Assembly: GCF_013201825.1 (NCBI RefSeq)
Contig: NZ_CP053836.1
Location: forward strand, 3,100,001 to 3,164,000
Length of the DNA: 64,000 nt
Direction of reading: 5' to 3'
DNA from: Halarcobacter ebronensis
GTDB lineage: Bacteria; Campylobacterota; Campylobacteria; Campylobacterales; Arcobacteraceae
The notes under the pieces are model-generated. The model made no database searches. It had not been told where the DNA came from and saw nothing but the letters and a program-made list of their open reading frames with translations. How positions within the stretch are numbered: position 1 is the stretch's first letter; every line of letters starts with the position of its first letter. The position numbers were made by a program, and so were the translations under genes. Below, piece after piece: positions 2,292-27,450 of this stretch.

Positions 2292-2326
2292 AAACTCATC
2301 TTCTTCCCTATTATAAAGAGGAAAAC

Positions 2327-2551: not shown

Positions 2552-2563
2552 AAGAAGATATGC

Positions 2564-3259: not shown

Positions 3260-3275
3260 AAAACAACTGATGAAA

Positions 3276-3339
3276 TCAAACTTTTAATTTGAAAGATTCA
3301 ATTTAATAGAAGAACTCAAACTTTTAATTTGAAATATTC
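3276..3339 (+). repeat. Two direct copies of a 24-bp element upstream of cysD
   Basis: Copies at 3276-3299 and 3316-3339 share TCAAACTTTTAATTTGAAA followed by G or T and then ATTC, so they differ at one base. Their starts are exactly 40 bp apart, close to four helical turns. Each copy contains the inverted repeat TCAAA-N7-TTTGA. They fill most of the only long gap inside the sulfate-assimilation genes, which suggests paired operator sites, or two small mRNA hairpins, controlling cysDN and the sulfite reductase. The function is inferred. Confidence 0.7.
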
Positions 3340-3366
3340 TAAAAAAATAAATTAATGGAATGATAA

Positions 3367-4278: not shown

Positions 4279-4279
4279 G

Positions 4280-5692: not shown

Positions 5693-5701
5693 GAGAAAAA
5701 G

Positions 5702-7276: not shown

Positions 7277-7300
7277 AAAAGAGATAAATTCTCTTTTCTA
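7274..7300 (+). terminator. Hairpin after the sulfite reductase gene
   Basis: A perfect 10-bp inverted repeat, TAGAAAAGAG and CTCTTTTCTA, separated by 7 bases. It begins in the stop codon itself. The T-run lies inside the 3' arm rather than after it, so it is a likely but not ideal intrinsic terminator for the sulfur operon. Confidence 0.6.
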
Positions 7301-7334
7301 TTAATTGAACCTATAATTAAAATAAGCTATAATT

Positions 7335-8645
7335 ATGCCCATGATTAAAGATATCTATAGACCATTTTTTGATAAACATACAAATATTCTAGATTTTGTT
7401 AGATACAACACCATTGGGAAGAGTAAAAAAGAGTATTTTGATTATACGGCTACGGGTTTAGCTTTTAGACAGATAGAAAACCGTATAAGAGATGTACTTG
7501 AAACCTATGCAAATACTCACTCAAAAGAGTCTTCTAATGCAAATATTACAAGTGACTATTATAATAATGCAATCCTCTCTTTAAAAAAAAGCCTTGAACT
7601 AAAAGAGGGTTTTTCCATATTACCAGCTGGATGTGGTTCAACTGCTGCTATTAAAAAATTTCAAGAGTTACTTGGTCTATATATCCCACCAGCAACAAAA
7701 AAAAGATACTCTTTAAATATCCCAAAAGAGAAACTTCCTTTAGTAATTGTTGGTCCCTATGAGCACCACTCAAACGAAGTAAGCTATAGAGAAGCCCTTT
7801 GTGAAATAAAAAGAGTAGGACTTACAAAAGATGGACTTATTGATAAAGAGGAGTTAGAAGAGATTTTAAAAAACAATCAACACAGAGAGATAGTTGGAAG
7901 TTTTTGTATAGCTTCAAATGTAACAGGAATTATCACTTGCTATAAAGATATCTCAACAATCTTAAGAAAATATAAAGCAATAGTTTGTTTTGATGCAGCA
8001 GCAAGTTCACCCTATATGAATGTTGATTGTGACTACTATGATGCTATGTTTATCTCTCCACACAAACTTCTAGGTGGTCCAGGAAGTTGTGGACTTTTGA
8101 TTATAAAAGATAGTATTGTAGACACCTCTTTATCCCCTACTTTTGCAGGTGGTGGAACTGTCTCTTATGTAAACTCTCAAATCCAAGAGTATGAAAAAGA
8201 GTTAAGTGTTAGAGAGACTGCTGGAACTCCAGGTATTTTACAACTTATTAGAAGTGCCCTAGCCTATCAACTAAGAAACGAAATAGGTTTTGAGTTTATA
8301 ATGCAAAGAAAACAAGAGCTCTTATGTCACCTAATAAAAGAGCTTGAAAAAATTCCTAATATTAAAATCTATGGAAATAAAACTTGCAAAAATATTGGAA
8401 TAATCTCTTTTAATATAAAAGATATAAATCCCTATGATATTTGTAGAAGACTCTCTTCGGAAGAAGGCATACAAACCAGAGCTGGTTGCTCTTGCGCTGG
8501 ACCATATGGACACGATTTATTAGGTTTTCACTCAAAAGAGGAGTTGCAACAAAAACCAGGTTGGCTTAGAATCTCTATTCACTATTCCCAAACCCTTGAA
8601 GAGATTGACAATTTAGTTGAGGCTATAAAACAATCAATCTACTAA
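7335..8645 (+). CDS. Class V aminotransferase-fold PLP enzyme (cysteine desulfurase-like)
   Basis: A 436-residue PLP enzyme of the NifS/SufS fold. The PLP lysine lies in FISPHKLLGGPGS, preceded by the cofactor aspartate in VCFDAAASSP. The C-terminal segment RAGCSCAGPYGHDLLG contains two cysteines where desulfurases carry the catalytic one, but the spacing resembles a separate uncharacterised group. The gene directly follows the sulfur operon, so desulfurase or sulfur-transfer activity is plausible but unproven. The start is uncertain: ATG at 7335 or at 7341, with no clear ribosome site. A TATAAT at 7328-7333 would put the transcript start close to the second ATG, so translation could be leaderless. 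Confidence 0.8.
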   Translation: MPMIKDIYRPFFDKHTNILDFVRYNTIGKSKKEYFDYTATGLAFRQIENRIRDVLETYANTHSKESSNANITSDYYNNAILSLKKSLELKEGFSILPAGCGSTAAIKKFQELLGLYIPPATKKRYSLNIPKEKLPLVIVGPYEHHSNEVSYREALCEIKRVGLTKDGLIDKEELEEILKNNQHREIVGSFCIASNVTGIITCYKDISTILRKYKAIVCFDAAASSPYMNVDCDYYDAMFISPHKLLGGPGSCGLLIIKDSIVDTSLSPTFAGGGTVSYVNSQIQEYEKELSVRETAGTPGILQLIRSALAYQLRNEIGFEFIMQRKQELLCHLIKELEKIPNIKIYGNKTCKNIGIISFNIKDINPYDICRRLSSEEGIQTRAGCSCAGPYGHDLLGFHSKEELQQKPGWLRISIHYSQTLEEIDNLVEAIKQSIY

Positions 8646-12700: not shown

Positions 12701-12742
12701 TTTTTCTCCTTAAAATAAGAAGGAGAATCATCCTTCTTATTT
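12701..12742 (-). promoter_or_regulatory. Potential two-state hairpin controlling the small peptide
   Basis: In the minus-strand mRNA the segment AAATAAGAAGGA (which contains the hsp20 stop codon) pairs perfectly over 12 bp with TCCTTCTTATTT. The same downstream arm can instead form TTCTCCTT/AAGGAGAA with an 8-base loop, burying the ribosome site of the 31-codon gene. The two pairings exclude each other. A ribosome ending hsp20 would cover the first arm. Structure read by eye; not folded by program. Confidence 0.55.
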
Positions 12743-13150
12743 AATCGCTATTGATTTTTTTGTTTTTGTTTCAGCAAGTTTTGGAATAATAACTTCCAAA
12801 ACACCATCTTCACTTCGTGCTTGAATATTTTCCACATCAACATTTTCAGGAACTGTAAAACTTCTTGAAAATTTACCAAATGATGTTTCTACTTTATAAT
12901 AATCTTCCTCTTTTACCTCATCTTTTGTTTTTCTCTCACCTGAAATTGTTAGGATATTTTTATCAATATCAACACTTATATCATCTTTTTTTACTCCTGG
13001 TAAATCAACATCAATGTGATATGCATTTTCACCTTCTCTTGTATTTACCACGGGAACAAAACCATTTAATCCTTCATCTTTTGGATAGTTATAAAAACTT
13101 TTTTCTAAATCTCTAAATTGTCTAAAAGGGTCAAATTTTGTTATTAACAT
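12737..13150 (-). CDS. Small heat shock protein, Hsp20/alpha-crystallin family
   Basis: An ATP-independent holding chaperone of 137 residues. The alpha-crystallin domain covers about residues 30-125 (YHIDVDLPGVKKDDISVDI, then GERKTKDE, then FGKFSRSFTVPENVD and ARSEDGVLEVIIPK), and the C-terminal IAI is the I-x-I/V motif that docks into neighbouring subunits. The start has an excellent ribosome site, AAGGAGG. Upstream lie a full consensus promoter and a CIRCE-like operator, so repression by HrcA and induction by heat are predicted. A 7-bp hairpin (13173-13193) sits in the 5' leader. A small membrane-peptide gene follows in the same direction. Confidence 0.95.
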   Translation of the reverse strand: MLITKFDPFRQFRDLEKSFYNYPKDEGLNGFVPVVNTREGENAYHIDVDLPGVKKDDISVDIDKNILTISGERKTKDEVKEEDYYKVETSFGKFSRSFTVPENVDVENIQARSEDGVLEVIIPKLAETKTKKSIAIK

Positions 13151-13444: not shown

Positions 13445-16400
13445 ATGGCTCTTAAAGTTGTAATTTCCCATAAAACTGAGTATAAATATAGTAAAAAAGT
13501 TTCAATGTCACCACATATTATAAGATTAAGACCAGCACCCCATAGTAGAACACCAATTGAAGCTTATTCATTAAAAATAAAACCTGAAAATCACTTTATA
13601 AATTGGCAACAAGATCCCTTTGGAAACTACCTTGCAAGACTTGTGTTCCTAGAGAAAACTGATATCTTTAGTGTTGATGTAGAGATAATTGCAGATATGA
13701 TTACCATGAATCCCTTTGATTTTTTTGTGGAAGATGGCTCAAAAGAGTTTCCATTTACCTATAAAAAAGATTTGAAAAAAGAGCTTGCTCCATATTTAGA
13801 AATTGAAGAAACAAGTAAAGAGCTAGAAGAGTTTGTAGATAGTATAAATAAAAGTAAAAAATCAATAATTGATTTTTTGGTTGAAGTGAACCAAAAAATA
13901 CATAATACTCTAAACTATACTGTTAGAATGGAACCTGGAGTTCAAACTCCAAAAGAGACTTTAGATAAAAAACTTGGAAGCTGTAGAGACTTTGCTTGGC
14001 TTTTTGTTCAAGTATTAAGACATCTTGGACTTGCAAGTAGGTTTGTCTCTGGATATTTAGTTCAACTAACAGCAGATGTTAAATCATTAGATGGACCAAG
14101 TGGTCCTGAAAAGGATTTTACAGACCTTCACGCTTGGACTGAAGTTTATGTTCCAGGAGCTGGTTGGATTGGACTTGATAGTACAAGTGGACTTTTTGCA
14201 GGGGAAGGACATATCCCTCTTGCTTGTACTCCAAACTACACTAGTGCCCATGCAATTGAAGGGCTTACAGATGTTTGTGAGACAAAATTTAATTATGAAA
14301 ACAAAGTTACAAGAATTTTTGAATCTCCAAGGGTTACCAAACCCTATAAACAAAAGCAGTGGGAAGATATATATAATTTAGGTTTCAAAGTTGATGAAGA
14401 TTTAACCACCCATGATGTTAGACTTACTATGGGAGGAGAGCCAACTTTTGTCTCTATTGATGATATGGAATCAGCACAATGGAATAATGAAGCCGATGGA
14501 GCACATAAAAGAGAGCTTGCAAATAATCTTTCAAGAAAAATTTTAGATTCAACTACCAATGGTGGACTTCTTCATCATGCACAAGGTAAATGGTATCCAG
14601 GGGAACCTCTTCCTAGATGGCAAACAACTATTTATTGGCGAAAAGATGGAAAACCAGTTTGGAGAAACCCAGAACTTTTAGCAAATATGAATAAGACTTA
14701 CCCTTATAAAACCAAAGATGCGAAAGAGTTTCTTTCAACTTTAGCTCTAGTCTTAGGAGTAAGTGATAAGAATATAGTTCCAGCTTTTGAAGATCCAGTT
14801 TATTACATTATGAAAGAGTTTGAACTTCCCCTTGATATTGACCCAATGAAAGCTAATTTAAAAGATTCTTTAGAGAGAAGAACCATAGCACAAAAACTTC
14901 AACAAGGTTTAAATAGTGAGGTTGGATATGTTCTACCACTTAATTTTGGGAGAACAAAATGGATTACTTCACAATGGGAGTTTAGAAGAGGATATATGTT
15001 CCTTGGTGCAGGGAACTCTCCATTGGGACTTAGACTCCCTTTAGAATCATTAATTGTAAAACCACAAATTGAACTTGAAAAAAGCTTTGAACCAGATCTT
15101 TTTGCTTCATATCCTGCTTTGGGAGATTATATTACAGAAGTTGAGAAAAGAGCTAAAAATATTAATGCCAAAACCACAGAACAAAACTCTTATAGTGTAT
15201 TTGTTAGAACAGCTATTAGTGCAGAGATAAGAGATGAGAAACTTTGTATCTTTTTACCTCCAATAGATAATACAGAGGCTTTTCTTGATTTAATAGCCTC
15301 TATTGAACAAACAGCGCAGATATTAAATTTGGCTGTAATAATTGAAGGGTATGAACCTCCACAAGATAGCAGAACAGATAGAATAAAAGTAACTCCAGAT
15401 CCAGGAGTAATAGAGGTAAATATTCAACCAGCTTCATCTTGGAAAGAGTTAAGTGATAACCTTTTAAAACTATATGAAGATGCAAGGATTTGTAGACTTG
15501 GAACTGAAAAGTTTATGGTTGATGGAAGACACACAGGAACAGGAGGAGGAAATCATGTAACAATTGGTGCAGCAACTCCAAGTGATTCTCCACTTCTTAG
15601 AGATCCAAATCTATTAAGAAGTCTTATAACCTTTTGGCAACACCATCCAGGACTTTCATATCTTTTTAGTGGAGCTTTTATAGGACCAACTTCACAAGCT
15701 CCAAGAGTAGATGAGGGAAGATTAGAGAACCTATATGAGTTGGAGATTGCTTTTTCTCAAATTCCAGAAGATGGTAATATTCCATTTTGGTTAACAGATA
15801 GACTCTTTAGACATATGTTAACAGATATTACAGGCAATACCCATAGAAGTGAGTTTTGTATAGATAAACTCTACTCACCTGATTCAAGTTCTGGAAGACT
15901 TGGTATTTTAGAACTGCGAGCTTTTGATATGCCACCACACTCACAAATGGCACTACTTCAAATGCTTCTTGTGCGTGCCTTAGTTGCTTGTTTTTGGAAA
16001 AATCCATATAAACATAAACTTGTACGTTGGGGAACACGACTTCACGATAAATTTTTGCTTGAACACTATGTAAAAGAGGATATAAAAGAGGTTGTTGAGT
16101 ATCTAAATGAAAATGGTTATGGTTTCAAACTGGATTGGTTTGACCCTTTCTTTGAGTTTAGATTTCCACTTTATGGAATGACAACAATTGAAAATATGCA
16201 TGTGGAGATAAGAGCAGCCATAGAGCCTTGGAATGTTTTAGGGGAGGAAGCAACTTCCCAAGGAACTTCAAGATATGTGGACTCTTCTGTGGAGAGGCTT
16301 CAAATAAAAATTGATAACTTTAATGAAGAGAGATATACCCTTGCTTGTAATGGGATTCAAATACCACTTAGTAAAACAAATATTGAAGGGGAATATGTAA

Positions 16401-16810
16401 ATGGGGTTAGATATAAAGCTTGGCAACCTTGGTCAGCACTTCATCCAACAATTGGTGTTGACACTCCTCTAACTTTTGATATTATTGATAATTGGAATGA
16501 GCGTTCAATAGGAGGATTCAACTACTTTGTTTCCCATCCAGGAGGAAGAAGTTATGATACTTTTCCAGTAAACTCTTATGAAGCAGAATCAAGAAGAATA
16601 AACAGATATTGGGATTTTAACCATAGCCAAGGGGAAGTTGTAAATTATGATCCAATAATAAATTCTAGCAAAAATGCAATCTTTGCAAATGGTGCAAAAA
16701 GGGCAGTTGTGGAGAAAAAAGGTTTAGAAAAGCTATATTTTCATAAAATGTCAAAAAATAAAGAGTTCCCACACACTTTAGACTTAAGACAAAGATGGAC
16801 AAGAAATTAG
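13445..16810 (+). CDS. Transglutaminase-like domain fused to DUF2126
   Basis: A 1121-residue two-domain protein. Residues 1-300 are a bacterial transglutaminase-like domain with its N-terminal extension and a complete catalytic triad: C180 (GSCRDFAW), H229 (LHAWTEVYVPGAGW) and D245. The rest, from about residue 320 (LTMGGEPTFVS) to the end, is DUF2126, of unknown fold and activity; conserved-looking blocks are DGRHTGTGGGNHVTIG, HPGLSYLFSGAFIGPTSQAP and LELRAFDMPPHSQMALLQ. Comparative work on ATP-grasp amidoligases places this pair with circularly permuted ATP-grasp and alpha-E proteins in predicted peptide-synthesis operons. The ATP-grasp gene starts immediately after the stop codon. Cytoplasmic: no signal peptide seen. 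Confidence 0.9.
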   Translation: MALKVVISHKTEYKYSKKVSMSPHIIRLRPAPHSRTPIEAYSLKIKPENHFINWQQDPFGNYLARLVFLEKTDIFSVDVEIIADMITMNPFDFFVEDGSKEFPFTYKKDLKKELAPYLEIEETSKELEEFVDSINKSKKSIIDFLVEVNQKIHNTLNYTVRMEPGVQTPKETLDKKLGSCRDFAWLFVQVLRHLGLASRFVSGYLVQLTADVKSLDGPSGPEKDFTDLHAWTEVYVPGAGWIGLDSTSGLFAGEGHIPLACTPNYTSAHAIEGLTDVCETKFNYENKVTRIFESPRVTKPYKQKQWEDIYNLGFKVDEDLTTHDVRLTMGGEPTFVSIDDMESAQWNNEADGAHKRELANNLSRKILDSTTNGGLLHHAQGKWYPGEPLPRWQTTIYWRKDGKPVWRNPELLANMNKTYPYKTKDAKEFLSTLALVLGVSDKNIVPAFEDPVYYIMKEFELPLDIDPMKANLKDSLERRTIAQKLQQGLNSEVGYVLPLNFGRTKWITSQWEFRRGYMFLGAGNSPLGLRLPLESLIVKPQIELEKSFEPDLFASYPALGDYITEVEKRAKNINAKTTEQNSYSVFVRTAISAEIRDEKLCIFLPPIDNTEAFLDLIASIEQTAQILNLAVIIEGYEPPQDSRTDRIKVTPDPGVIEVNIQPASSWKELSDNLLKLYEDARICRLGTEKFMVDGRHTGTGGGNHVTIGAATPSDSPLLRDPNLLRSLITFWQHHPGLSYLFSGAFIGPTSQAPRVDEGRLENLYELEIAFSQIPEDGNIPFWLTDRLFRHMLTDITGNTHRSEFCIDKLYSPDSSSGRLGILELRAFDMPPHSQMALLQMLLVRALVACFWKNPYKHKLVRWGTRLHDKFLLEHYVKEDIKEVVEYLNENGYGFKLDWFDPFFEFRFPLYGMTTIENMHVEIRAAIEPWNVLGEEATSQGTSRYVDSSVERLQIKIDNFNEERYTLACNGIQIPLSKTNIEGEYVNGVRYKAWQPWSALHPTIGVDTPLTFDIIDNWNERSIGGFNYFVSHPGGRSYDTFPVNSYEAESRRINRYWDFNHSQGEVVNYDPIINSSKNAIFANGAKRAVVEKKGLEKLYFHKMSKNKEFPHTLDLRQRWTRN

Positions 16811-19303
16811 ATGGATATATTTGAAAGTTGTAAACTTGACTCATCATTTGATGAGATGTTTGACAAAAGTTGCAATGTAAAAGAGCATTGGAATGAGATA
16901 AAAGAATCCCTAGAAAAATCTGGGATGGAAAAGCTTGAACAAAAGCAAACGGAGATTGATTGGAGATTAGAGGATAACGGAGTTACTTATAATGTCTATA
17001 ATGACCCTGAAGGGACAAATAGAAGATGGAATCTTGATCCAATTCCTTTTGTTTTAAATGAAAAAGAGTGGGAAGAGGTTACGAAAGGTTTACAGCAAAG
17101 AGCAAAACTTTTAAACCTGATTTTCAGAGATTTATACACAGAACAAAGATTGATAAAAGAGGGGATTATTCCAGCAGAGATTATCTTTGCCCATAAAAGT
17201 TTTTTACCTGAACTCTTTAACTTTAAAAACAAAGATTACTACACAATGCGATTTTATGCAGCTGACATAAGCAGAGGTCCAGATGGAAAATTTTGGGTTA
17301 TAAATGATAGAACCCAGTCTCCATCTGGACTTGGGTATGCAATTGAGAATCGTCTTACAATGAACTCTTCCCTCTCTGATTTATACTCAAATATCAAGTT
17401 TAAAAAGATTGCAGGCTTTTTAGAAGGGTATAAAAATATGCTTTTAAGTACTGCAAAAAATAGAAGTGAAGATCCATTAATAGTACTTTTAACCCCAGGT
17501 CCTCACAATGAGACCTATTTTGAGCACTCATACCTAAGCTCTTTTTTTAATCTTACTTTAGTTCAAGGGGAAGATCTATTAACAAAAAATAATCAACTTT
17601 GGCTAAAAACGCTCAGTGGCTTAAAAAAAGTTGACACTGTTTTAAGAAGAGTTGACTCTAAATATTGTGACCCGTTAGAGTTAGAAAACAGCTCTCATCT
17701 TGGGGTTGCAGGATTAATAAATGTTTTAAGAAATGACCATTTATCAATGATAAATCCAATAGGAATTGGTATTTTAGAGAATGTTGGACTTAACCCTTTT
17801 ATGAAAAACATTGCAAAATTTTTCCTAAATGAGGATTTAATACTTCCTCAAATTGCAACTTGGTGGTGTGGACAAAAACATGAACTTGAATTTGTTATTG
17901 AAAACATTGATAATCTTATTATTAAAAAAATTGACAAAACCGATAGAATAGAGGTTCATTTTGGAAACAAACTAAGCTTTGAAGAGAAAAATATCTTAAT
18001 AGACAAAATCTTATCTACACCTTCATATTATGTTGGACAAGAGATTATTGATTTTTCAACTGTTCCCTCTTATGTTGGTAACAATATTGAACCAAGAAAT
18101 GCTGTAATTAGATCATTTTCATTCCTTAATGAGGATAAATATGAAGTTATGCCAAGTGGTTTGGTGAGAGTATCAAAAGAGAAAGATTCCCTTGTTGTTT
18201 CAAATCAAAGGGGAGGAACAAGTAAAGATTTATGGATATTAGGAGAGGATAATAGTGAGAAGTTTAGTGCTATTTCTAGCCATAGAGATTTCTTAGATAC
18301 CAGATTGGGAAATATCTCTACAAAAAGAGCAGAAAACCTCTTTTGGCTTGGAAGATATCTAAGCAGAGCTGTTATTACAACAAGGATGTTAAGATTTAAT
18401 CTAAAAGCAGTTTTAAATCTAAACAGATATGAAGATAGAAATATTTCAAAAAGCAGTGCGGAGATTTTAAATAGATGTTTAACCCATCTTACAATGACCT
18501 ATCCTGGCTTTTTAGAAGAAGAAAAAGAGGTTAAACCTATTGTTGAAATAACCTCTGTAATACAAGATGTTACAAGAGTAGGAACTCTTAGTTTTACCCT
18601 TTCAATGTTAAGCAATATAAATGCAAATATCAAAAATCTTCTAACTATTGATGCTTGGAGAGTTTATGATAGAATGAAAAAGAGATGGTACTCATATAAT
18701 AAAAGAAAGATTATCTCAAACAGAGAACATATAGGGGAACTTGATAGACTTCTTATCTATCTTATGGCATATAAAGAGCTTATTGATGAGAGTATCTCAA
18801 ATGATCAAGGGTTAATTCTTTATGATATTGGCTGTAAACTGGAGATTTCACTACTTCTTATCTCTAAAATGAGATCTTTATTAACAACAAAACTTGACAA
18901 ACTTCTTGAGTATGATATTCTTGATTCAATGTTAAATACCTATGAGAGTTATAATGCCTATAGAGCACACTACAAATCAACCTTAGAGTTAGAGAATGTA
19001 GTTGAATTTTTACTCTTTAACACCAAATATCAAAAATCCTTGATATTTATAATTGAAGAACTTTTAAGAAGTCTAAAAGAGTTACCAAATAGTTCTCACT
19101 CTTCCCACTTAAATAATTTTGAAGAGCCTGTATTTAAAGTCTATACTATGCTTAAACTTACAAATGCTAAAAGATTATTAAGAACAAAAGAGAAAGATTT
19201 TGTCTATTTAACCCTTGATGGTTTTCTTTCAGAGATTTCTGAGCTATTAGCCCAAACCTCTGAAGAGATTACAAAAACATATTTTGCACACTATAACGAG
19301 TAA
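16811..19303 (+). CDS. Circularly permuted ATP-grasp ligase fused to alpha-E domain
   Basis: An 830-residue fusion. Residues 1 to about 495 form a circularly permuted ATP-grasp, with the signature NDRTQSPSGLGYAIENR and the late IEPRNAVIR and SNQRGGTSKDLW segments. From about residue 500 (ISTKRAENLFWLGRYLSRA) to the end is the all-helical alpha-E domain. Such ligases are predicted to form amide or peptide bonds; alpha-E is a presumed partner of unknown activity. In many genomes the two are separate genes, and in this window a split pair exists at 22073-24107. The gene starts directly after the DUF2126 stop, and the third gene starts 3 bases after its own stop, so the three form one operon. Confidence 0.9.
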   Translation: MDIFESCKLDSSFDEMFDKSCNVKEHWNEIKESLEKSGMEKLEQKQTEIDWRLEDNGVTYNVYNDPEGTNRRWNLDPIPFVLNEKEWEEVTKGLQQRAKLLNLIFRDLYTEQRLIKEGIIPAEIIFAHKSFLPELFNFKNKDYYTMRFYAADISRGPDGKFWVINDRTQSPSGLGYAIENRLTMNSSLSDLYSNIKFKKIAGFLEGYKNMLLSTAKNRSEDPLIVLLTPGPHNETYFEHSYLSSFFNLTLVQGEDLLTKNNQLWLKTLSGLKKVDTVLRRVDSKYCDPLELENSSHLGVAGLINVLRNDHLSMINPIGIGILENVGLNPFMKNIAKFFLNEDLILPQIATWWCGQKHELEFVIENIDNLIIKKIDKTDRIEVHFGNKLSFEEKNILIDKILSTPSYYVGQEIIDFSTVPSYVGNNIEPRNAVIRSFSFLNEDKYEVMPSGLVRVSKEKDSLVVSNQRGGTSKDLWILGEDNSEKFSAISSHRDFLDTRLGNISTKRAENLFWLGRYLSRAVITTRMLRFNLKAVLNLNRYEDRNISKSSAEILNRCLTHLTMTYPGFLEEEKEVKPIVEITSVIQDVTRVGTLSFTLSMLSNINANIKNLLTIDAWRVYDRMKKRWYSYNKRKIISNREHIGELDRLLIYLMAYKELIDESISNDQGLILYDIGCKLEISLLLISKMRSLLTTKLDKLLEYDILDSMLNTYESYNAYRAHYKSTLELENVVEFLLFNTKYQKSLIFIIEELLRSLKELPNSSHSSHLNNFEEPVFKVYTMLKLTNAKRLLRTKEKDFVYLTLDGFLSEISELLAQTSEEITKTYFAHYNE

Positions 19304-19306
19304 AAA

Positions 19307-20200
19307 ATGGTATATGAAGTATTTCACGAAACAAAATTCCACTATCCTGCCCTTGTAACCTTTAGTCACAATATAGCTAGGCTTACTCCTAAAAGTTGTC
19401 ATAGACAAAAACTTTTAGAACACACCCTTGAAATTACACCAAAACCCTTTGAAACAACTCTTTTTGAAGATTATTTTGGAAATCAAAATACCTTTATGTT
19501 AATAAGAGAAGCCCATAAGAGTCTAAGTGTAATCTCAAAATCAAAAGTTGAACTAATTGAAGATAGAATCTTTGAGTACAATGAAAAAGCAAAACAGACA
19601 ACCATTACCTATGAACAAATGAGAGAGAGATTAGAAGCTCATAAAAGTACAGATGCTTTGGCTTTTCAATACCTTTTTGAAACTGACTCAATTGCTGTGC
19701 CATCAAAGGAGATAAAAGAGTATGTTTTACAATCTTTTAGTCCAAATAGAACTCTTTTTGAAGCTACAAATGAGTTTATGCAAAGAATCTTCACAGATTT
19801 TAAATTTGTCTCAGGATTTACAGATATTACAACTCCTATTGAAGATATTTTTAGAGAAAAAAAAGGGGTTTGCCAAGATTTTGCACAGTTTGCAATTGCA
19901 GCACTTAGAAGTATAGGTATTCCAACTAGATATATGAGTGGATATATTCAAACATACCCCAAAGAGGGTGAGAAAAAACTCTTTGGTTCAGATGCTTCCC
20001 ATGCGTGGTTTTCTATCTATATTCCAGATTTTGGTTGGGTTGATTTTGATCCAACTAATAATAAACTACCAAATGAAGAGTATGTTATTTTAGGATTTGG
20101 AAGGGATTATATGGATATCTCTCCTTTAAAAGGTGTAGTAAAAAGTAGTGGAGAGAGTAAACTAAGTGTACGGGTAAATGTGCTAAAGTTGGAAGTTTAA
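19307..20200 (+). CDS. Transglutaminase-like protease/ligase
   Basis: A 297-residue protein of the transglutaminase-like superfamily with the bacterial N-terminal domain (residues 1-95). The catalytic triad is visible: C189 (KGVCQDFAQ), H232 (ASHAWFSIYIPDFGW) and D248 in FDPTNN. It is the last gene of the plus-strand arm of the cluster. Its stop codon ends at 20200 and the stop codon of the opposing arm begins at 20201, so the two operons abut with no spacer. Members of this group linked to ATP-grasp ligases are predicted to cleave or transfer peptide bonds made by those ligases. The substrate is unknown. Confidence 0.88.
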   Translation: MVYEVFHETKFHYPALVTFSHNIARLTPKSCHRQKLLEHTLEITPKPFETTLFEDYFGNQNTFMLIREAHKSLSVISKSKVELIEDRIFEYNEKAKQTTITYEQMRERLEAHKSTDALAFQYLFETDSIAVPSKEIKEYVLQSFSPNRTLFEATNEFMQRIFTDFKFVSGFTDITTPIEDIFREKKGVCQDFAQFAIAALRSIGIPTRYMSGYIQTYPKEGEKKLFGSDASHAWFSIYIPDFGWVDFDPTNNKLPNEEYVILGFGRDYMDISPLKGVVKSSGESKLSVRVNVLKLEV

Positions 20201-21133
20201 TTATCCAACTTTAGCTACCCTAAAAGCAACAGCATTTTCATATATAAGAGAACTGTTGTAGTTACAAGTAATCATCCCATCACAAGGTGATTTGAACTCA
20301 TAAATCACATTTCCCTCTAATGAATCAATTATCTCTCCCATTATTTGCTCTTTTACAACATAACTTCCAGGGAACTCTTTTGGTATAAAAATACCACTTT
20401 TTAAACTTTTAATTACCCTTATCTCTTCTGTTTTAATAACCGTTGAATCATAGGCATTAAAAATTGAAAAATCGATGATTTCATTTTTATTCATAAATCT
20501 TAAAATAGCTTGATTTATCTGGCTTGAGATTTTATTATCAATATGACTTAAAGTGGGACAAACGATAGAATAAGCCTTTGTTCCCCAAAGTTGCCAATTA
20601 TATTGTAAAGTCACACTATCTATTGATTTCATATTTTTATGATGAATAAATTTAAAACCAAACTTTTTCGCACCCTCTAAATCTTCAAATTCACTCTCTA
20701 AAAGTTTAATGTAAGGAATACAATTTACAGGGTCTTGTCTTTTCTCTAAAATCACACCAAAAGTGTATCCATTTAAAACATCAAAAACTTTTTTTGCAAT
20801 CCGTTGGGTTGTTTCACCCAAACCATATCCAGGGAACATCATATTAATATCAGTATTATCCAAAGGCCAAAATCTTTTCCCTGAATTAAAGGCATAATGA
20901 TTAACTGAAGGGATAATTAAAACATCACCTTTTATCCTTTTTGCATCAATTTTGTTTTTAAAAAAATCTACAAGTTTTGAAGCACAATATAAAGGGAGAA
21001 TTCCCTCCCCTTCCATTGCTCCAACAATGGCAATCTTAGGAGCTTTTTTACTCTTTCCTTTAAATAAAAAACCTTCAATAATAAGGGGTTCTCTACTTAA
21101 AGATTCAATTTTTAAAATCTCAATTCTCTTCAC
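20201..21133 (-). CDS. M14/aspartoacylase-like protein lacking metal ligands
   Basis: A protein of the succinylglutamate desuccinylase/aspartoacylase branch of M14 peptidases, paralogous to the gene just upstream. The active site looks dead. The first zinc motif (HGDE in the paralogue) reads MEGE, the second zinc His (DIHSSN) is replaced by LEKR, and the catalytic Glu region (VEMG) reads CPTLSH. The C-terminal beta domain (FKSPCDGMITCNYNS) is kept. The GTG at 21133 is preferred as start because GGAG stands 6 bases before it, giving a 14-base overlap with the upstream gene. An ATG at 21172 would overlap by 53 bases and lacks a ribosome site. Likely a pseudoenzyme or binding subunit. Confidence 0.82.
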   Translation of the reverse strand: MKRIEILKIESLSREPLIIEGFLFKGKSKKAPKIAIVGAMEGEGILPLYCASKLVDFFKNKIDAKRIKGDVLIIPSVNHYAFNSGKRFWPLDNTDINMMFPGYGLGETTQRIAKKVFDVLNGYTFGVILEKRQDPVNCIPYIKLLESEFEDLEGAKKFGFKFIHHKNMKSIDSVTLQYNWQLWGTKAYSIVCPTLSHIDNKISSQINQAILRFMNKNEIIDFSIFNAYDSTVIKTEEIRVIKSLKSGIFIPKEFPGSYVVKEQIMGEIIDSLEGNVIYEFKSPCDGMITCNYNSSLIYENAVAFRVAKVG

Positions 21134-22076
21134 TTTTTTCTCCAAAGATTCTTGCAAGTAGTGAGCCTTCATAAACTACTGGATACTCCCTTAGGGTAAA
21201 TAAAATTCCACAATTTGGTGCAAAAAGTTCACTTAAAATCTCCCCTGTTAAAGGGGATACAATCTCACCAATCTTATCCCCTTTTTTTATAATTTCACAG
21301 TGATCAAGGGAAGGGACAAAAAGTCCACTTGTTGGAGCATTTATATAATATACATCCCCTATTTCAGAGCTAAAAGGTTCCCTTACTTCAAATTCCTGTT
21401 TTGTATTAATCATTTTTTGTTTTTTTAGAAGATTTAAAATTCCTATTAGAAGTTGCTCTCCATACTCCTTTGTAAGCCTCATACCAACTCCCATCTCAAC
21501 AACTAAAGTATTTGTTCCTAAAGAGTTTAAAGTATGGGAAAATGTTGCTTCTAAAACAGTTACCGCATCATGAATCCAAATAAAATCACAATTTAACTCT
21601 TTTGCTAAATGAAGTGTATTTTTAGAGAACTCTTTATTTATTCTAATTTGAGGTATCTCCCTTAAAAAAATATTACTTGAGTGGATATCAATTGCAATAT
21701 CACTACCTTTTATATCCTCAGTTAAAGCGTGAACAACTTGTCCAGGGAGAAAATCATTTACACTTCCAGGGAAAGCTCTGTTTAGATCCACATTGTAGTT
21801 AGGGAAACTTCTTGTAATAGTATCAATTCCTAAAGGATTTGCAGCAGGATAGATATCCACAATTGCATTTAAAGTATCTATATTTTTATTTAACCATTGG
21901 GCCAATAGATATATTACCAATTGTCCTTCCAATTCATCCCCATGGATTCCACTTACTATACTGATTCTTTTTAGTTTTTTACCTTTTTTAGTTTTTTTGG
22001 GCTCAAATCTAGTTCTTTTTATTGTAAGTTTTTCACCAACAGGAAGTTGTGATGTAAAAATTTCTGTTGTTTTCAT
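21120..22076 (-). CDS. M14-family zinc carboxypeptidase/aspartoacylase-like enzyme
   Basis: A 318-residue member of the succinylglutamate desuccinylase/aspartoacylase branch. Zinc ligands are intact: H and E in SGIHGDELEG, and the second His in AIDIHSSN; the catalytic Glu lies in LVVEMGVGM. The C-terminal domain (SPLTGEILSELFAPNCG) resembles lipoyl-like barrels found in this branch. It overlaps the alpha-E gene upstream by 4 bases and its degenerate paralogue downstream. In this cluster it is a plausible hydrolase for products of the ATP-grasp ligases, or for their removal from a protein; this is inferred from context. Confidence 0.85.
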   Translation of the reverse strand: MKTTEIFTSQLPVGEKLTIKRTRFEPKKTKKGKKLKRISIVSGIHGDELEGQLVIYLLAQWLNKNIDTLNAIVDIYPAANPLGIDTITRSFPNYNVDLNRAFPGSVNDFLPGQVVHALTEDIKGSDIAIDIHSSNIFLREIPQIRINKEFSKNTLHLAKELNCDFIWIHDAVTVLEATFSHTLNSLGTNTLVVEMGVGMRLTKEYGEQLLIGILNLLKKQKMINTKQEFEVREPFSSEIGDVYYINAPTSGLFVPSLDHCEIIKKGDKIGEIVSPLTGEILSELFAPNCGILFTLREYPVVYEGSLLARIFGEKSEEN

Positions 22077-22741
22077 TGATCCTCAACAATTATTTTATTT
22101 ATCTTTGCATTAATAGAATTTAAAATTGTATCATAAGATTCTCTCTCCCTATGGGGAACAAAAACAGCATTTGGATTTAATCGCAATACTATAGTATCAA
22201 TCTCATTCATAATAAGCAGCGAAAATCCTTTGTCTCTTTTTAGTCGTAGATGTATATCAACTTTTTCAACAAGTTTTCCAAGTCTAATAAAATAATCACT
22301 TGTATTTCTCTCTTGTTTTCTTGAAAGTTCTCCCCATATCTCACTTATTCTTGATGAGATTTTTTCCACGAAAGAACAATCAATATTAAAATGATCATTT
22401 TGAGCCTGCTTTAAAAGTTCTGAAAGCTCAATAATAGAACCAAATGCATTTGCATCAATGTAAGCCCTTGTAATTATTGCATTTTCTCTTATATAGTTTA
22501 TGATTGCATAGATATTTGATTCATGTTCACCAAAACAAGCCTCATATAAAAAATCATTTGCATTTTTATATTTTATCTCTATTTCAAGGCGTTTAAAAAG
22601 TTTTTTACCTGCATTTTTATCAACATCAATTATCTCATCAAAGGTTTCAACAATCTCAATGAGCATTGCTTCAAGTCGTTCCAAATATCTTCCAAGCCAA
22701 TATAAATTACTTGCCATATTTGCAGTTAATAATTGATCCAT
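22073..22741 (-). CDS. Alpha-E domain protein (stand-alone)
   Basis: A 222-residue all-helical protein of the alpha-E family. The N-terminal ANMASNLYWLGRYLERLE matches the start of the alpha-E half of the fusion at 16811-19303 (RAENLFWLGRYLSRA). Further helices contain FYEACFG-like and EIWGELSRKQERN segments. The biochemical role is unknown; it is almost always encoded beside a circularly permuted ATP-grasp protein and is expected to work with it. Here the ATP-grasp gene is 1 base upstream, and the M14 gene overlaps the end by 4 bases. Confidence 0.86.
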   Translation of the reverse strand: MDQLLTANMASNLYWLGRYLERLEAMLIEIVETFDEIIDVDKNAGKKLFKRLEIEIKYKNANDFLYEACFGEHESNIYAIINYIRENAIITRAYIDANAFGSIIELSELLKQAQNDHFNIDCSFVEKISSRISEIWGELSRKQERNTSDYFIRLGKLVEKVDIHLRLKRDKGFSLLIMNEIDTIVLRLNPNAVFVPHRERESYDTILNSINAKINKIIVEDQ

Positions 22742-22742
22742 T

Positions 22743-24107
22743 TTATTCTCCTACAACCCATGTATCTTTAAAACCACCACCTTGAGAGGAGTTAACTAAA
22801 TAGTTACCTGCTTCAACGGCATATCTTGTTAAACCGCAGTTCCAAACTTTTGGTTTTTCTGCCATTATTACATAGGCCCTAAAATCTGCTTTTCTAGGAA
22901 CTATCTCATCATTTATAAAACAATTCTCATCATAAAATTCAACCAACTCTTGGGCTATAAATCTCCTTGGATTTGCTTCAATAATTGTTTTTAAATCTTG
23001 TAATTGGATTTTTGACATAGAGTGTCCAAACATCACTCCATATCCACCTGCTTCTGCAACATCTTTTATTACAAGTTTTTCAATATTATCATAGATATAT
23101 TTTTTATCTTTTTCAAAATATGGTAAATAGGTTGGAGCATTGTATAATATAGGCTCCTCATTTAGATAATATTTAATCATCTTAGGAACAAAATAATAGA
23201 TACCTTTATCATCTGCAACACCATTTCCTGGTGCATTTAAAATTGCCACATTACCTGCTAAATAAACCTCCATAATATCTGGCACGCCTATTAAACTCTC
23301 TTTATTGAAAAACTTTGGATCTAAAAATTCATCATCAAGTCTTCTATAAACTGCCCCTACTCTAATCTTTTTCCCATTATAATTTTTAAAATATAAAACT
23401 TTATTTTCAACCAAAAGTTCATTATTTCTTACAAGTTTTGAACCTGTTATCTCTGCTAAATAGGCATGTTCATAATATGCTGAATTAAATCTTCCTGGAG
23501 TTAAAACTACATTTATCCCCTCATTGTTTACATAATCCATAGATTCTTTTAAAATATCTGCATAGTCTTTTATGGGTTTTATATCCATCTTTTCAAAAAA
23601 ATCGGGGTAAATTTTTCTAAAGGTATTTCTTATAGATAAGGGATAACTAGCTCCACTTGGTACCCTTAAATTATCCTCTAAAATAACCCATTCATTTGTT
23701 ACTGTATCTTTTACTAAATCTATACCATTTATATGGGTTCTTAATTTTTTAGGAGGTGAAAATCCATCAAGTTCTTTTAAAAAGCCTTTTGCTTTATAAA
23801 TAAACTCTTCTGGAATAATTTTTTCTTTTATTATTCTTTTTTTTGTGTATAGATCTTCTAAAAACAGATTTAATGCTATTATTCTTTGACTAAGACCCCT
23901 TTCAATCTTATCAAATTCTTTAGTTGTCATTATTCTTGGGATCACATCAAAAGGTAAGGATCTTTCAATAAAATTCCCATCTTTATATAGATTAAAGTTG
24001 ATTGCAAACTTATCCATATATTTTTTAAACTCTTTTACTTTTTGCCTATCTTGGTTTGAAAATATCTCCCAAAATATTTCCGTAGCTACATTTTTTGTAT
24101 CTAACAA
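22743..24107 (-). CDS. Circularly permuted ATP-grasp ligase (stand-alone)
   Basis: A 454-residue ATP-grasp protein of the permuted type that heads the minus-strand arm. The signature VILEDNLRVPSGASYPLSIR is clear, as are the C-terminal VPRKADFRAYVI and SSQGGGFKDTWVV, which correspond to segments in the fused paralogue at 16811. The start is TTG, with a perfect AGGAGG ribosome site 6 bases upstream. It is probably an amide- or peptide-forming ligase acting with the alpha-E protein encoded next. Substrate and product are unknown. No Anbu-type peptidase gene, a frequent companion of this pair, is present in the window. Confidence 0.9.
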   Translation of the reverse strand: MLDTKNVATEIFWEIFSNQDRQKVKEFKKYMDKFAINFNLYKDGNFIERSLPFDVIPRIMTTKEFDKIERGLSQRIIALNLFLEDLYTKKRIIKEKIIPEEFIYKAKGFLKELDGFSPPKKLRTHINGIDLVKDTVTNEWVILEDNLRVPSGASYPLSIRNTFRKIYPDFFEKMDIKPIKDYADILKESMDYVNNEGINVVLTPGRFNSAYYEHAYLAEITGSKLVRNNELLVENKVLYFKNYNGKKIRVGAVYRRLDDEFLDPKFFNKESLIGVPDIMEVYLAGNVAILNAPGNGVADDKGIYYFVPKMIKYYLNEEPILYNAPTYLPYFEKDKKYIYDNIEKLVIKDVAEAGGYGVMFGHSMSKIQLQDLKTIIEANPRRFIAQELVEFYDENCFINDEIVPRKADFRAYVIMAEKPKVWNCGLTRYAVEAGNYLVNSSQGGGFKDTWVVGE

Positions 24108-24439: not shown

Positions 24440-26485
24440 CTAAAGTGGAATTTTTATGGTAAAAGAAGCACCTTTATTTTCTTCACTAATACAATCAATT
24501 TTACCACCTAAATTAATTGTTACTAGATTATAAACAATATTTAACCCTAATCCAATTGAACCATTTTTTCTATTTGTTGTAAAAAAAGGCTCATATATTT
24601 TCGATAAGTTTTCTTTTGATATCCCTTTCCCATAATCGCGATATTCAAAAATAAACTCTTTATTTTTAATCTTAGCATTTAAAGAGATAACTCCTTTTTC
24701 GTTATCTTTATATGCATGTTCTAAAGAATTTGAAATCAAATGATGAATAATTTGTGCAAAAAGACCTGGGAAAGAGTCGATTTGAAGCATCTCATCACAC
24801 TCTATTTTAAACTCAATATTTCGATTGCTCAATAAGCTATCCATGCTTATTAAAATACCTCTCATATACTCTTTAACGTTAAAAACTCTTTTTATTTCAC
24901 TAGTTTGATCCACTGCCACTTGTTTAAAGTTTTTTATAATCTCTTCTGTTTTTTGCAAACTTGTTACAATAACTTTAATTAAGTTATTTGAATTTTCTAA
25001 ATAACTTTTCCATTCTTCAGTTAAGATTGCACCACTTTCATATTTTGAAATTATCTCTTCTAAAATATACTCTAAATGTGACGCCCCTGTAACTCCAAGA
25101 CCAATTGGTGCACTAATTTCATTTGCAACACCCGAAACCAAACTACCAAGTCCAGCTAATTTTTCGGACTCAATAAGTTTATTTTGAGTTATTATTAGAT
25201 TTTCCATAGAAGCTTCTAGTTCATCATTTGATTCTTGTAAATCAAGATTTTTATTTTCTAATTCTATCTCTAAGATCTTTTTATCTTGAATATCTCTCCA
25301 AACTCCATGAACTACAATTTCACCATTTATAACTATTTTAGTAAGTACAATTTCACACCAAAACTCTGTGCCTGTTATTTTTCTATGAAGCCATTCAAAT
25401 CGTATACTACCTTTTTCTAAACATTTGTTTATATTCTCTTTTACCAAAATATCTGAAGATATACCATTTGGTTGAATCTCTGGAGATATCATATTTGGAT
25501 TTAAATTTAAAAATTCATCTTTTTGTTTTATCTCTAACAATTTTAAAAGAGCAAGATTACAATCAATAAACTTACCATCTTTTAATAAACTTATACCATC
25601 AGAGCTATCATTAAATAGTGTTTCAAAAACTTTTTTTTCTTCTTCTAACTCTTTTGTTCTTAATTTCACTTTTTCTTGAAGTTTATTATTAAATGTTAAT
25701 ATTTTTTCTTCTTGATCTTTTAACTGCTCAATATCTTGAACAATTTTATCTCTCATTTTTGCAAAATTTAATGATAGAATTCTTAACTCTTTTACTCCTG
25801 AAACTGTAATCTCTGCATTTAGATTTCCAGATGCAATTGTTTTTGTGACTGTACTTAACATATCAATGGGTTTTAACACATTTCTAACTATCAATATAAT
25901 AATTGCTGAAATCACAAGAATAATTATTAAGGATATAGTTAAAAATATTTCTCTAAATATATATAATTGTTCATATTTAACATCTTTACTAACCCTATAA
26001 CCTATAATCCAATTCCAAGGTTCATAATATTTAAAAATAATCCATCTGTCATTGCTTTTATTTAAAATATCAAAATTACCATTTCTAATTTTTAATATAT
26101 TTTTATACTCTTCTTTATTTTTATATAAATGAGCATTTTGTTTATTATATTTTCTATGCAATATTACAAAACCATTTTCATCTATAATAAAAGGGAAAAT
26201 CTCTTTTTTGTTTTTATCAAAAACTTTTTTTACAATATCTAAAGTCCCTTTCTTAAACGACTCTTCATAGGATTTTTCCATTTGCGTTTTTAAAAGTGTT
26301 TCATATTTTTGATTTATAAGATAGATTATATTATCAATCTTTTCGTTATATATTTTCTCTTGTGATATATTGATCTCTTTTTTTAAATAATGATATGTAA
26401 AATAAAAAATAGAACTAATACCAAGACTTATAACTAGAAGACTTGAGATTAAAAGTTCTGTTTTTAAAGATCTGTTTTTTATCAT
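24440..26485 (-). CDS. Sensor histidine kinase homologue with Asn in place of the phospho-acceptor His
   Basis: A 681-residue membrane sensor: helix (about 10-32), periplasmic Cache-like region (40-165), second helix (178-205), HAMP (205-255), coiled coil, PAS (285-400), second coiled coil, dimerisation segment and HATPase domain. The dimerisation motif should read AHEI but reads VANEISAP, so residue 455, the expected phospho-acceptor, is Asn (codon AAT at 25121-25123). The ATPase motifs remain: HHLISNSLEHAY, DYGKGISKE and GSIGLGLNIVYNL. It overlaps the upstream binding-protein gene by 4 bases, and no response regulator gene adjoins. It may act by ATP binding alone, through heterodimers, or be an inactive relic. 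Confidence 0.88.
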   Translation of the reverse strand: MIKNRSLKTELLISSLLVISLGISSIFYFTYHYLKKEINISQEKIYNEKIDNIIYLINQKYETLLKTQMEKSYEESFKKGTLDIVKKVFDKNKKEIFPFIIDENGFVILHRKYNKQNAHLYKNKEEYKNILKIRNGNFDILNKSNDRWIIFKYYEPWNWIIGYRVSKDVKYEQLYIFREIFLTISLIIILVISAIIILIVRNVLKPIDMLSTVTKTIASGNLNAEITVSGVKELRILSLNFAKMRDKIVQDIEQLKDQEEKILTFNNKLQEKVKLRTKELEEEKKVFETLFNDSSDGISLLKDGKFIDCNLALLKLLEIKQKDEFLNLNPNMISPEIQPNGISSDILVKENINKCLEKGSIRFEWLHRKITGTEFWCEIVLTKIVINGEIVVHGVWRDIQDKKILEIELENKNLDLQESNDELEASMENLIITQNKLIESEKLAGLGSLVSGVANEISAPIGLGVTGASHLEYILEEIISKYESGAILTEEWKSYLENSNNLIKVIVTSLQKTEEIIKNFKQVAVDQTSEIKRVFNVKEYMRGILISMDSLLSNRNIEFKIECDEMLQIDSFPGLFAQIIHHLISNSLEHAYKDNEKGVISLNAKIKNKEFIFEYRDYGKGISKENLSKIYEPFFTTNRKNGSIGLGLNIVYNLVTINLGGKIDCISEENKGASFTIKIPL

Positions 26486-27450
26486 TTTATTAATACCGCA
26501 TTATCAATGAGTTCAAAAGGGAAAACTATATTAAACTTTTTTGCTAAAGTTGTATTTATAAAAATATTTGATTTTTTATTTACAACAATAGGAATGTTTT
26601 TTATAGTTTCACCTTTTAGAACTCTAAGAACTGTATTTGCTGTCCACTCACCTTGCTCTTCTGGTTTAAGAGGTAGAGACAAAAGAGCATATTCAATTAA
26701 ATTTCCATCACCTGTTCCCGTTGGAATAATAGTATTTTGAAGTGTAAAGTTTTTTATCTCTTTTCTATTTTTCTCCCAATCTTTTATAGACCCCCCATAT
26801 CCAATGATAAGAATATCCACATTATTTTGTAATTCAATAAATCCTTTTTTCCACTCTTCAACAGAAGAGACTAATCTTGCATCCATTTTTTTATTTAACT
26901 GTTTTTGAAAATAGTCTAACTCAATTCTTGTGGTCAAGGAATCATCTTTTAAAAAACCTACTCTATTACCTTTTGCATATTTGCTTAAGATTTCAACAGT
27001 TTGAGGAACTAATTGCACCTCTTCCATACCTGTAATATTAGATATTGGTAATCCATACTTTTTACTAGAACCATTTATCCCACAAAAAATAACAGGAATA
27101 GTACTATTTTTAAAGTAAGGCAAAATTATATATTTAAAAGCATTGTCATCGGAAGTTATAATCACATCAGGTTTAAAGTTTTCAATTTGATTCTTGATTT
27201 TTTTGGCTATTTTTATTTTGTAAGGCTCATCATTATTTCTTTTTGAGTCCATTTCAACTCTTTTAAATTCAAGGGGTAAGTTAGATTTGAAAAGTACTTT
27301 CTTTATACTTTTTTCAATCCCATCACTCCAATAAAGACCAGAGTGATAAGAATTGATATAAAAAACTCTTTTTTTTGCACTAATATTTTCTGCTTTAATA
27401 AAGATAAAAAACAATAATAATGAAAAGAAAATACTAAAAATCTTTTTCAT
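26482..27450 (-). CDS. Periplasmic binding protein (ABC_sub_bind-like) paired with the sensor kinase
   Basis: A 322-residue exported protein with a signal peptide (MKKIFSIFFSLLLFFIFIKA) and the two-lobed binding-protein fold: SYHSGLYWSDGIEKSIK at the start, FKPDVIITSDDNAFKYI, VIFCGINGSSKKYG and NRVGFLKDDS. No transporter genes accompany it. Its stop overlaps the start of the sensor kinase gene by 4 bases, so it most likely presents a ligand to that sensor. A minus-strand TATAAT at 27469-27474 is a possible promoter. The ligand is unknown. Similar pairs are common in this group of bacteria. Confidence 0.83.
   Translation of the reverse strand: MKKIFSIFFSLLLFFIFIKAENISAKKRVFYINSYHSGLYWSDGIEKSIKKVLFKSNLPLEFKRVEMDSKRNNDEPYKIKIAKKIKNQIENFKPDVIITSDDNAFKYIILPYFKNSTIPVIFCGINGSSKKYGLPISNITGMEEVQLVPQTVEILSKYAKGNRVGFLKDDSLTTRIELDYFQKQLNKKMDARLVSSVEEWKKGFIELQNNVDILIIGYGGSIKDWEKNRKEIKNFTLQNTIIPTGTGDGNLIEYALLSLPLKPEEQGEWTANTVLRVLKGETIKNIPIVVNKKSNIFINTTLAKKFNIVFPFELIDNAVLIK

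Follow-up and report, generated by a model that had tools for sequence, protein, structure and literature searches.

A two-armed ATP-grasp/Alpha-E/transglutaminase/M14 gene cluster of Halarcobacter ebronensis, probably a modular system for making and cleaving an amide

The window, a 64,000-nucleotide stretch of Halarcobacter ebronensis DNA (NZ_CP053836.1, positions 3,100,001 to 3,164,000), carries a seven-gene cluster which open reading frames and Pfam matches resolve into two convergent arms with abutting stop codons. In window coordinates, the features are:

13445..16810, + strand: gene A (arm 1), transglutaminase-like domain fused to DUF2126, a putative GS-like amidoligase (1121 aa; Pfam)
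16811..19303, + strand: gene B (arm 1), circularly permuted ATP-grasp fused to Alpha-E, a probable pseudo-ligase or scaffold (830 aa; Pfam, motif loss, fold match)
19307..20200, + strand: gene C (arm 1), stand-alone transglutaminase-like protein (297 aa; Pfam, invariant triad)
20186..20211, no strand: palindrome AAGTTGGA-N10-TCCAACTT across the two stop codons at which genes C and D abut (read from the sequence)
20201..21172, - strand: gene D (arm 2, M14b), AstE/AspA-like pseudo-hydrolase lacking zinc ligands (Pfam, motifs)
21120..22076, - strand: gene E (arm 2, M14a), intact AstE/AspA-type M14 zinc hydrolase (full AstE_AspA domain in Pfam, motifs)
22073..22741, - strand: gene F (arm 2), short, all-helical Alpha-E protein (Pfam; model pLDDT 92)
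22743..24107, - strand: gene G (arm 2), stand-alone circularly permuted ATP-grasp that keeps every ATP motif (454 aa CP_ATPgrasp; Pfam, motifs)

There is no gap between the arms, genes C and D ending in stop codons at 20198-20200 and 20203-20201, respectively. Gene G starts with TTG, with AGGAGG upstream, and the start of M14b is probably the TTG at 21145, which matches the ATG of close relatives. The first-pass annotation had described two facing ATP-grasp/Alpha-E sets, one fused and one split, and every element of that description was confirmed. DUF2126 is part of one of the two transglutaminases rather than a separate gene, as gene A combines Bact_transglu_N, Transglut_core and DUF2126. The whole genome contains exactly two circularly permuted ATP-grasps, both in the cluster, and ATP-grasps of the same kind occur in 18 of 120 relatives, mostly with both arms. 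Within the genus the block is all-or-none: strain G008 has the order Hsp20-HK-SBP-TypA with nothing between. The sensor kinase, ABC_sub_bind and Hsp20 genes were rejected as parts of the cluster because they are present without it in G008 and vary independently. Conserved extra partner genes were likewise rejected; neighbours of the Sulfuricurvum cluster are housekeeping genes, and the insertion between the arms at locus L057 is a chemotaxis receptor. PADLOC gave no match, and a defence system was dropped as a candidate.

The ATP-grasps of genes B and G share approximately 30% identity and fall into two ancient clades spanning phyla. The tree rules out a local duplication, and the earlier description of the cluster as duplicated is misleading because the two ATP-grasps are ancient paralogues in separate clades. 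Their motifs differ as well. In the fused clade of gene B, the E-x-N motif, the Gly-rich loop GGYG and DxR are lost in Campylobacterota, Enterobacter, Azospirillum and Burkholderia, whereas gene G retains E-x-N, K, GGYG, DxR and SSQGGG. Arm 2 alone therefore encodes an evidently competent ATP-grasp. Foldseek matched the model of the arm-1 ATP-grasp to 3n6x (deposited as a putative glutathionylspermidine synthase), 2hgs, 2io7 and 2vpm; of these, 3n6x retains all ATP-grasp motifs, like the stand-alone clade of gene G. From its motifs, the gene B ATP-grasp is a probable pseudo-ligase or scaffold. If the two ligases proposed at first pass were meant to be both ATP-grasps, that proposal fails, since none of the phyla sampled retains the Mg-ATP motifs in the fused one; any second ligase would therefore be DUF2126. 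The pseudo-enzyme assignments made here rest on motifs, and PEARLs call for caution, as activity in these relatives of ATP-grasps can survive changes at ATP-site residues (PMC10979984).

The remaining enzymes fall into intact and degenerate members. The transglutaminase triad of gene A (C180-H229-D245) and many residues of its DUF2126 region are unchanged even in Enterobacter, Azospirillum and Burkholderia, the DUF2126 match being full-length PF09899 at 1275 bits and suggesting a GS-like amidoligase. The triad of gene C (C189-H232-D248) is invariant too. The Alpha-E model of gene F is good, but its PDB matches are generic helical bundles and therefore give no hint at function. In M14a, the zinc ligands and catalytic Glu (H45xxE48, H132 and E194) are invariant. 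In M14b, only residues 44-132 match AstE_AspA, GAMEGEG and ILEKR stand in place of GxHGDE and DIHSS, and the zinc histidines are gone from 24 of 24 diverse homologues, which speaks against two active hydrolases. The apparent ligase pair and the apparent peptidase pair thus each have one member that looks dead by its motifs. M14a and M14b are either both there or both missing, and in the Campylobacterota genomes surveyed orthologues of the pair occur solely alongside arm 2; we infer that M14a is paired with M14b. Plasmid relatives of M14a are just ordinary AstE/AspA proteins with less than 31% identity.

The distribution of the arms indicates that they belong together, as had been supposed. Among 397 Campylobacterota genomes, arm 2 was present in 44 of 45 arm-1 genomes and 346 had neither arm (naive Fisher p 1e-50), so that the refuting outcome of independent arms with no co-occurrence did not arise. 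Both arms are retained even when unlinked, lying 1.1 Mb apart in genome G380 and on separate contigs elsewhere. Complete arm-2 operons have their own transglutaminase, which was intact in 16/16 arm-1-less genomes examined; of the 62 genomes that have arm 1, 61 either lack it or have a copy without the catalytic Cys. The tree places approximately 4-5 independent losses, and their association with arm 1 gives a lineage-level Fisher p of 0.015, a rough count based on few loss events. A prediction set beforehand, that Sulfuricurvum lacking the arm-2 transglutaminase would carry arm 1 elsewhere in the genome, held in 15/15 cases. Co-occurrence, transglutaminase complementarity and this prediction together lead us to treat the arms as one modular pathway. 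Interdependence is not strict: arm 2 stands alone, with its own intact transglutaminase, in eight Campylobacterota genomes and in other phyla. The exceptions are L114/G482, whose arm-2 transglutaminase is intact in spite of the presence of arm 1, and G066, a MAG of 190 contigs with arm 1 and no arm 2. In G045 the arm-2 ATP-grasp is interrupted by stops. Loss of the M14 pair (8/61 with arm 1 versus 0/16 without it, p 0.19) is not significant, and a causal role of arm 1 in this loss is suggestive only.

With moderate confidence, we read the seven genes as one modular ATP-dependent system that forms and cleaves amides, a variant of the Anbu-type amidoligase operon. The cluster probably builds and takes apart an amide or peptide. 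Arm 2 would be the core module, in which the gene G ATP-grasp, with Alpha-E (gene F), would couple an amine to an amino acid or peptide at its carboxylate, with an acyl phosphate as intermediate. Transfer or hydrolysis of this amide would then fall to a transglutaminase-type thiol enzyme, and M14a with inactive M14b, in the position of Anbu, would break the product down. Arm 1 would be an extension that adds a transglutaminase joined to DUF2126, a putative GS-like ligase, with the catalytically degenerate gene B as a candidate scaffold; the stand-alone transglutaminase of gene C would substitute for the one lost from arm 2. The most likely product is an amide formed reversibly, in chemistry akin to that of glutathionylspermidine synthetase/amidase, and a branched amide or removable protein tag is possible. 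A more far-reaching version is tentative, and we think it likelier to fail than to hold: a two-module pathway in which the inactive ATP-grasp-Alpha-E and inactive M14 would be obligate partners of their active paralogues, the transglutaminase would be replaced in trans between modules, and Campylobacterota at large would store nitrogen in a new amide metabolite (or tag), the core module having relatives in Bacillota, Fusobacteriota and Aquificota.

Work on Burkholderia and P. putida found that homologous operons either depend on NtrC/sigma-54 or respond to nitrogen limitation by induction (PMC5491218, PMC8050072, PMC3325844), and by analogy the cluster may act in nitrogen storage or scavenging when nitrogen is limiting. 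Scanning the window for TGGCAY-N5-TTGC with up to two mismatches gave 72 sites against 57 expected, near background, and the sole candidate near arm 1 lies at 13307 with two mismatches. The cluster might instead be catabolic, its transglutaminases and M14a deamidating or hydrolysing amides or peptides to release ammonia and amino acids, and the ATP-grasp just activating or priming the substrate. Homologous operons induced by nitrogen limitation adjoin urea and amino-acid transport genes (PMC5491218, PMC8050072, PMC3325844), and there is a correlation with urea-metabolism domains in marine metagenomes. Here, however, the cluster has no conserved transporter or ammonia-assimilation gene next to it; its neighbours are the housekeeping genes in Sulfuricurvum and sulfate assimilation genes upstream in the window, and we regard pure scavenging as quite unlikely.

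The AstE/AspA-type M14 enzymes whose function is known have small N-acyl amino acids as their substrates, which counts against protein tagging, in which the ligase or ligases would put a peptide or amino acid on proteins, the transglutaminases would conjugate or trim it and M14a would remove it, as in pupylation. Such tagging was put forward for Anbu operons by Iyer et al. 2009, as that work is represented in PMC6376114 and PMC5666114, and a single operon with amide-forming enzymes and a hydrolase, here with M14 proteins in the place of Anbu, would suit it. An unsystematic look found no evident tag peptide gene between the tightly packed genes, and Anbu itself showed neither peptidase activity on 20S substrates nor specific interaction with the proteins of its operon (PMC6376114). 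We consider tagging unlikely. It is very unlikely that two unrelated amide pathways travel as one gene island with no common substrate. The all-or-none block within the genus and the occurrence of arm 2 alone in several phyla would fit, but unlinked arms are both retained and only genomes with arm 1 have lost the arm-2 transglutaminase, so a shared step is needed. We therefore retain the single modular amide-forming and amide-cleaving system as the preferred reading.

Operons that combine ATP-grasp, Alpha-E and transglutaminase genes occur widely, and no product is recorded for them in the literature searched; the published activity is limited to Pi release from ATP, for one relative (PMC6376114). 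The cluster reveals their modularity and points to the ATP-grasp worth assaying and to likely inactive partner proteins. M14a offers a handle, as loss of the intact zinc hydrolase should let the product build up, and Sulfurospirillum, a single genus in which the arm-2 transglutaminase is intact or dead, provides a natural complementation experiment.

Set against known systems, M14a retains the domain and the zinc and catalytic residues of AstE/AspA-type hydrolases, its nearest solved relatives being DoeB 6twm, 3cdx and 2qj8, while M14b is a partner lacking those residues. The ATP-grasp fold is shared with glutathione synthetase, trypanothione synthetase and glutathionylspermidine synthetase/amidase (2io7), and in the last a thiol amidase beside an ATP-grasp ligase makes an analogous layout. 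Sequence family and substrate differ, however, and the cluster adds Alpha-E, DUF2126 and M14; Pfam finds no CHAP domain in it, transglutaminase-type proteins standing instead of the CHAP-type amidase. Iyer et al. 2009, as cited in PMC6376114 and PMC5666114, predicted that Anbu operons are amidoligase/peptide-tagging systems. Of the components of such a system, the arm-2 ATP-grasp supplies a circularly permuted ATP-grasp with an intact ATP site and DUF2126 a GS-like amidoligase, putative by sequence, but the M14 pair stands where an Ntn-fold peptidase partner is expected. The Anbu operon of Klebsiella, Acinetobacter, Pseudomonas and Yersinia (AG-alphaE-TG-Anbu) resembles complete arm-2 operons in its order of ATP-grasp, Alpha-E and transglutaminase, with an ATP-grasp of the stand-alone clade, and the window likewise has the stand-alone ATP-grasp followed by Alpha-E. 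Other lineages have AG-alphaE-TG-M14a-M14b where Klebsiella and Acinetobacter have AG-alphaE-TG-Anbu, the M14 pair sitting in the place of Anbu. Anbu itself had no match in approximately 100 relative loci, and a search for it elsewhere in the H. ebronensis genome found only HslV, the sole proteasome-fold protein, beside HslU. Arm 2 of the window lacks its own transglutaminase, and the convergent arm 1 supplies one. The Enterobacter roggenkampii plasmid NZ_CP116251, with a related arrangement in Burkholderia, carries the five-gene operon AG-alphaE-[TG-DUF2126]-[AG-alphaE]-TG and shares with the window the five core genes and both ATP-grasp clades, with the fused ATP-grasp degenerate in each; the plasmid has them as one co-directional operon without M14 genes, whereas the window has two convergent arms plus M14a and M14b.

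The seven open reading frames proposed by the first-pass annotation were all found at identical coordinates, and every domain claimed for them was assigned by Pfam. They form two convergent arms, arm 1 (genes A to C) and arm 2 (genes G to D):

13445-16810, + strand: gene A, transglutaminase domain and DUF2126
16811-19303, + strand: gene B, circularly permuted (CP) ATP-grasp fused to Alpha-E
19307-20200, + strand: gene C, transglutaminase
20201-21172, - strand: gene D (M14b), M14
21120-22076, - strand: gene E (M14a), M14
22073-22741, - strand: gene F, Alpha-E
22743-24107, - strand: gene G, CP ATP-grasp

The genome (one contig, 3.17 Mb) revealed no CP ATP-grasps beyond genes B and G. An 8-bp palindrome (AAGTTGGA-N10-TCCAACTT, 20186-20211) spans the abutting stop codons of both arms, possibly a bidirectional terminator without a T tract.

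In the relative G008, the order Hsp20, sensor kinase, substrate-binding protein, TypA equals that of the window minus 13445-24107, and in G002 and G010 Hsp20 is followed almost directly by TypA. The block is patchy within the genus, being held by 2 of 15 other genomes (the named relatives are Arcobacteraceae; same-genus G011 is Arcobacter sp. SZUA-449). The cluster-free sites and this patchiness therefore rule out the kinase, the binding protein and the Hsp20 gene as cluster parts. The kinase and ABC_sub_bind protein adjoining arm 2 (24440-27450) are also found in G008 and G001, which lack the cluster, and are thus an independent neighbour. The Hsp20 gene (12737-13150) adjoins the cluster in most Arcobacter-group relatives, on the opposite side in loci L036 and L047, and is also present at a cluster-free site. 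Upstream lies a sulfate assimilation block (1365-8645: PLP enzyme, PAPS reductase domain, CysN-like GTPase, sulfite/nitrite reductase, class-V aminotransferase). An aromatic amino acid lyase (43795-45315) sits amid small co-directional genes at about 42-62 kb, a run that is possibly an aryl-polyene or pigment-like cluster.

Scoring arm 1 by DUF2126 in 397 Campylobacterota genomes, this one included, we found arm 1 in 45, arm 2 in 50 and both in 44; the single arm-1 genome lacking arm 2 (G359) holds a fragment at a contig edge. The arms are thus coupled, and the independence that would have refuted the first-pass annotation was not seen; in one genome (G380) 1.1 Mb separates them. In the genome sample, which included MAGs, G066 has arm 1 only and G045 a broken arm-2 ATP-grasp, reflecting either decay or assembly.

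In genomes with arm 2 but no arm 1, a transglutaminase gene belonging to arm 2 lies between the Alpha-E and M14a genes and retains GVCQD (8/8). With arm 1, that transglutaminase is absent (40/47) or Cys-less (7/47; GLSQD, GISQD, GLRND). This pattern predicted beforehand that transglutaminase-less Sulfuricurvum without a nearby arm 1 would hold it elsewhere, and that intact-transglutaminase genomes of other phyla would lack it; whole-genome searches revealed arm 1 elsewhere in 15/15 of the former and no arm 1 in 12/12 of the latter. The non-redundant tally was 16 genomes with intact transglutaminase and no arm 1, 61 with lost or dead transglutaminase and arm 1 (including the window), 1 with both intact transglutaminase and arm 1 (L114/G482, the sole such genome) and 0 with neither (Fisher p 1e-15, uncorrected for kinship). 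On the arm-2 ATP-grasp tree, roughly four or five distinct lineages account for the losses, and a rough lineage-level test gave p 0.015. Evidently, the arm-1 transglutaminase substitutes, in cis or in trans, for one step in the pathway of arm 2. In Sulfurospirillum or its genus in the whole-genome set (L120, L121, L126, L147-L149, L151, L156, L157), the arm-2 transglutaminase is full-length with the catalytic Cys replaced by Ser or Arg, which suggests that a structural role is kept.

The cluster had been described as duplicated, with two ligases and separate hydrolases. The ATP-grasps of genes B and G align end to end at 28-31% identity. In a maximum-likelihood tree, one group (support 100/100) unites the fused ATP-grasps from Campylobacterota, Enterobacter, Azospirillum and Burkholderia, and a second comprises every stand-alone ATP-grasp, Anbu-operon members included; this separation across phyla contradicts local duplication. 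The arm-2 ATP-grasp keeps LEDN (E-x-N), GGYG, DLR (DFR in the window) and SSQGGG, the same canonical motifs as its solved relative 3n6x. E-x-N is a magnesium ligand in glutathione synthetases. In the fused proteins of all phyla examined, LEDN is replaced by INDR, ISDR, IGDR or the like, xIR or a similar triplet stands in place of DLR, and no GGYG loop remains. The model of the fused ATP-grasp (pLDDT 76) matched 3n6x first, followed by glutathione synthetases, E. coli glutathionylspermidine synthetase and trypanothione synthetase, whose ATP-grasp fold the protein thus still shares. By its motifs, arm 2 holds the only evident ATP-grasp ligase, not two, and the fused copy may be a scaffold or regulatory partner. 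A second ligase, if any, would be DUF2126, which has widely invariant residues and is a putative GS-like ligase by its Pfam description. Such a ligase was reportedly also part of the peptide-synthesis/tagging system predicted by Iyer et al. 2009.

Nor do two active hydrolases seem present. M14a keeps H45xxE48, H132 and E194, every one of which is substituted in the window's M14b; the zinc histidines are gone in 24 diverse M14b homologues, which conserve a motif of their own (WPLDNTDI..MFPGY..GETTQRIA). M14a is thus the only evident hydrolase. Across 55 genomes both proteins or neither occurred, never one singly. A scan of GTDB contigs found 372 M14a relatives; the 80 kept read AG (CP ATP-grasp) - Alpha-E - (TG, transglutaminase) - M14a - M14b, exceptions being contig-end cuts or broken genes. 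The carriers are Campylobacterota, Ruminococcus, other Clostridia, Leptotrichiaceae, Aquificota and Thiotrichales. In Klebsiella and Acinetobacter the operon is instead AG - Alpha-E - TG - Anbu, so the M14 pair occupies the position of Anbu, a proteasome-like protein. Anbu was found in none of the M14 loci and not in this genome, whose sole proteasome-fold protein is HslV, adjoining HslU.

ATP-grasp enzymes of this class generate an acyl phosphate, which they couple to an amine. Transglutaminase-type cysteine enzymes act on amides by transfer or hydrolysis, and AstE/AspA enzymes hydrolyse N-acyl amino acids. The ligase with Alpha-E would therefore form an amide, which the transglutaminase would transfer or open and M14a/M14b may split back into its parts; arm 1, via DUF2126, could extend or branch the product.

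Homologous operons point to nitrogen limitation: that of Burkholderia is sigma-54/NtrC-dependent (PMC5491218), that of P. putida is induced on nitrate and by nitrogen limitation (PMC8050072, PMC3325844), and in marine metagenomes the operon correlates with urea-metabolism domains (PMC3597751). Scanning the 64-kb window revealed no convincing sigma-54 site, so such a role here would be by analogy only.

According to later papers, Iyer et al. 2009 linked sets of CP ATP-grasp, Alpha-E and peptidase to peptide synthesis or tagging (PMC6376114, PMC5666114). This general idea is already published and the literature searched gave no biochemical product; the window cluster is therefore a variant of an already known kind of system. 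The open-access literature searched yielded no mention of the M14 replacement of Anbu, the degenerate fused ATP-grasp or the transglutaminase complementarity, which is weak evidence of novelty. The full five-gene set also lies on an IncFII plasmid of a blood-isolate Enterobacter roggenkampii (L134, 3180-12377), so the system is mobile on plasmids. There, the cluster's five core genes form a single operon, AG - Alpha-E - TG-DUF2126 - AG-Alpha-E - TG, without M14, whereas the window cluster carries the M14 genes.
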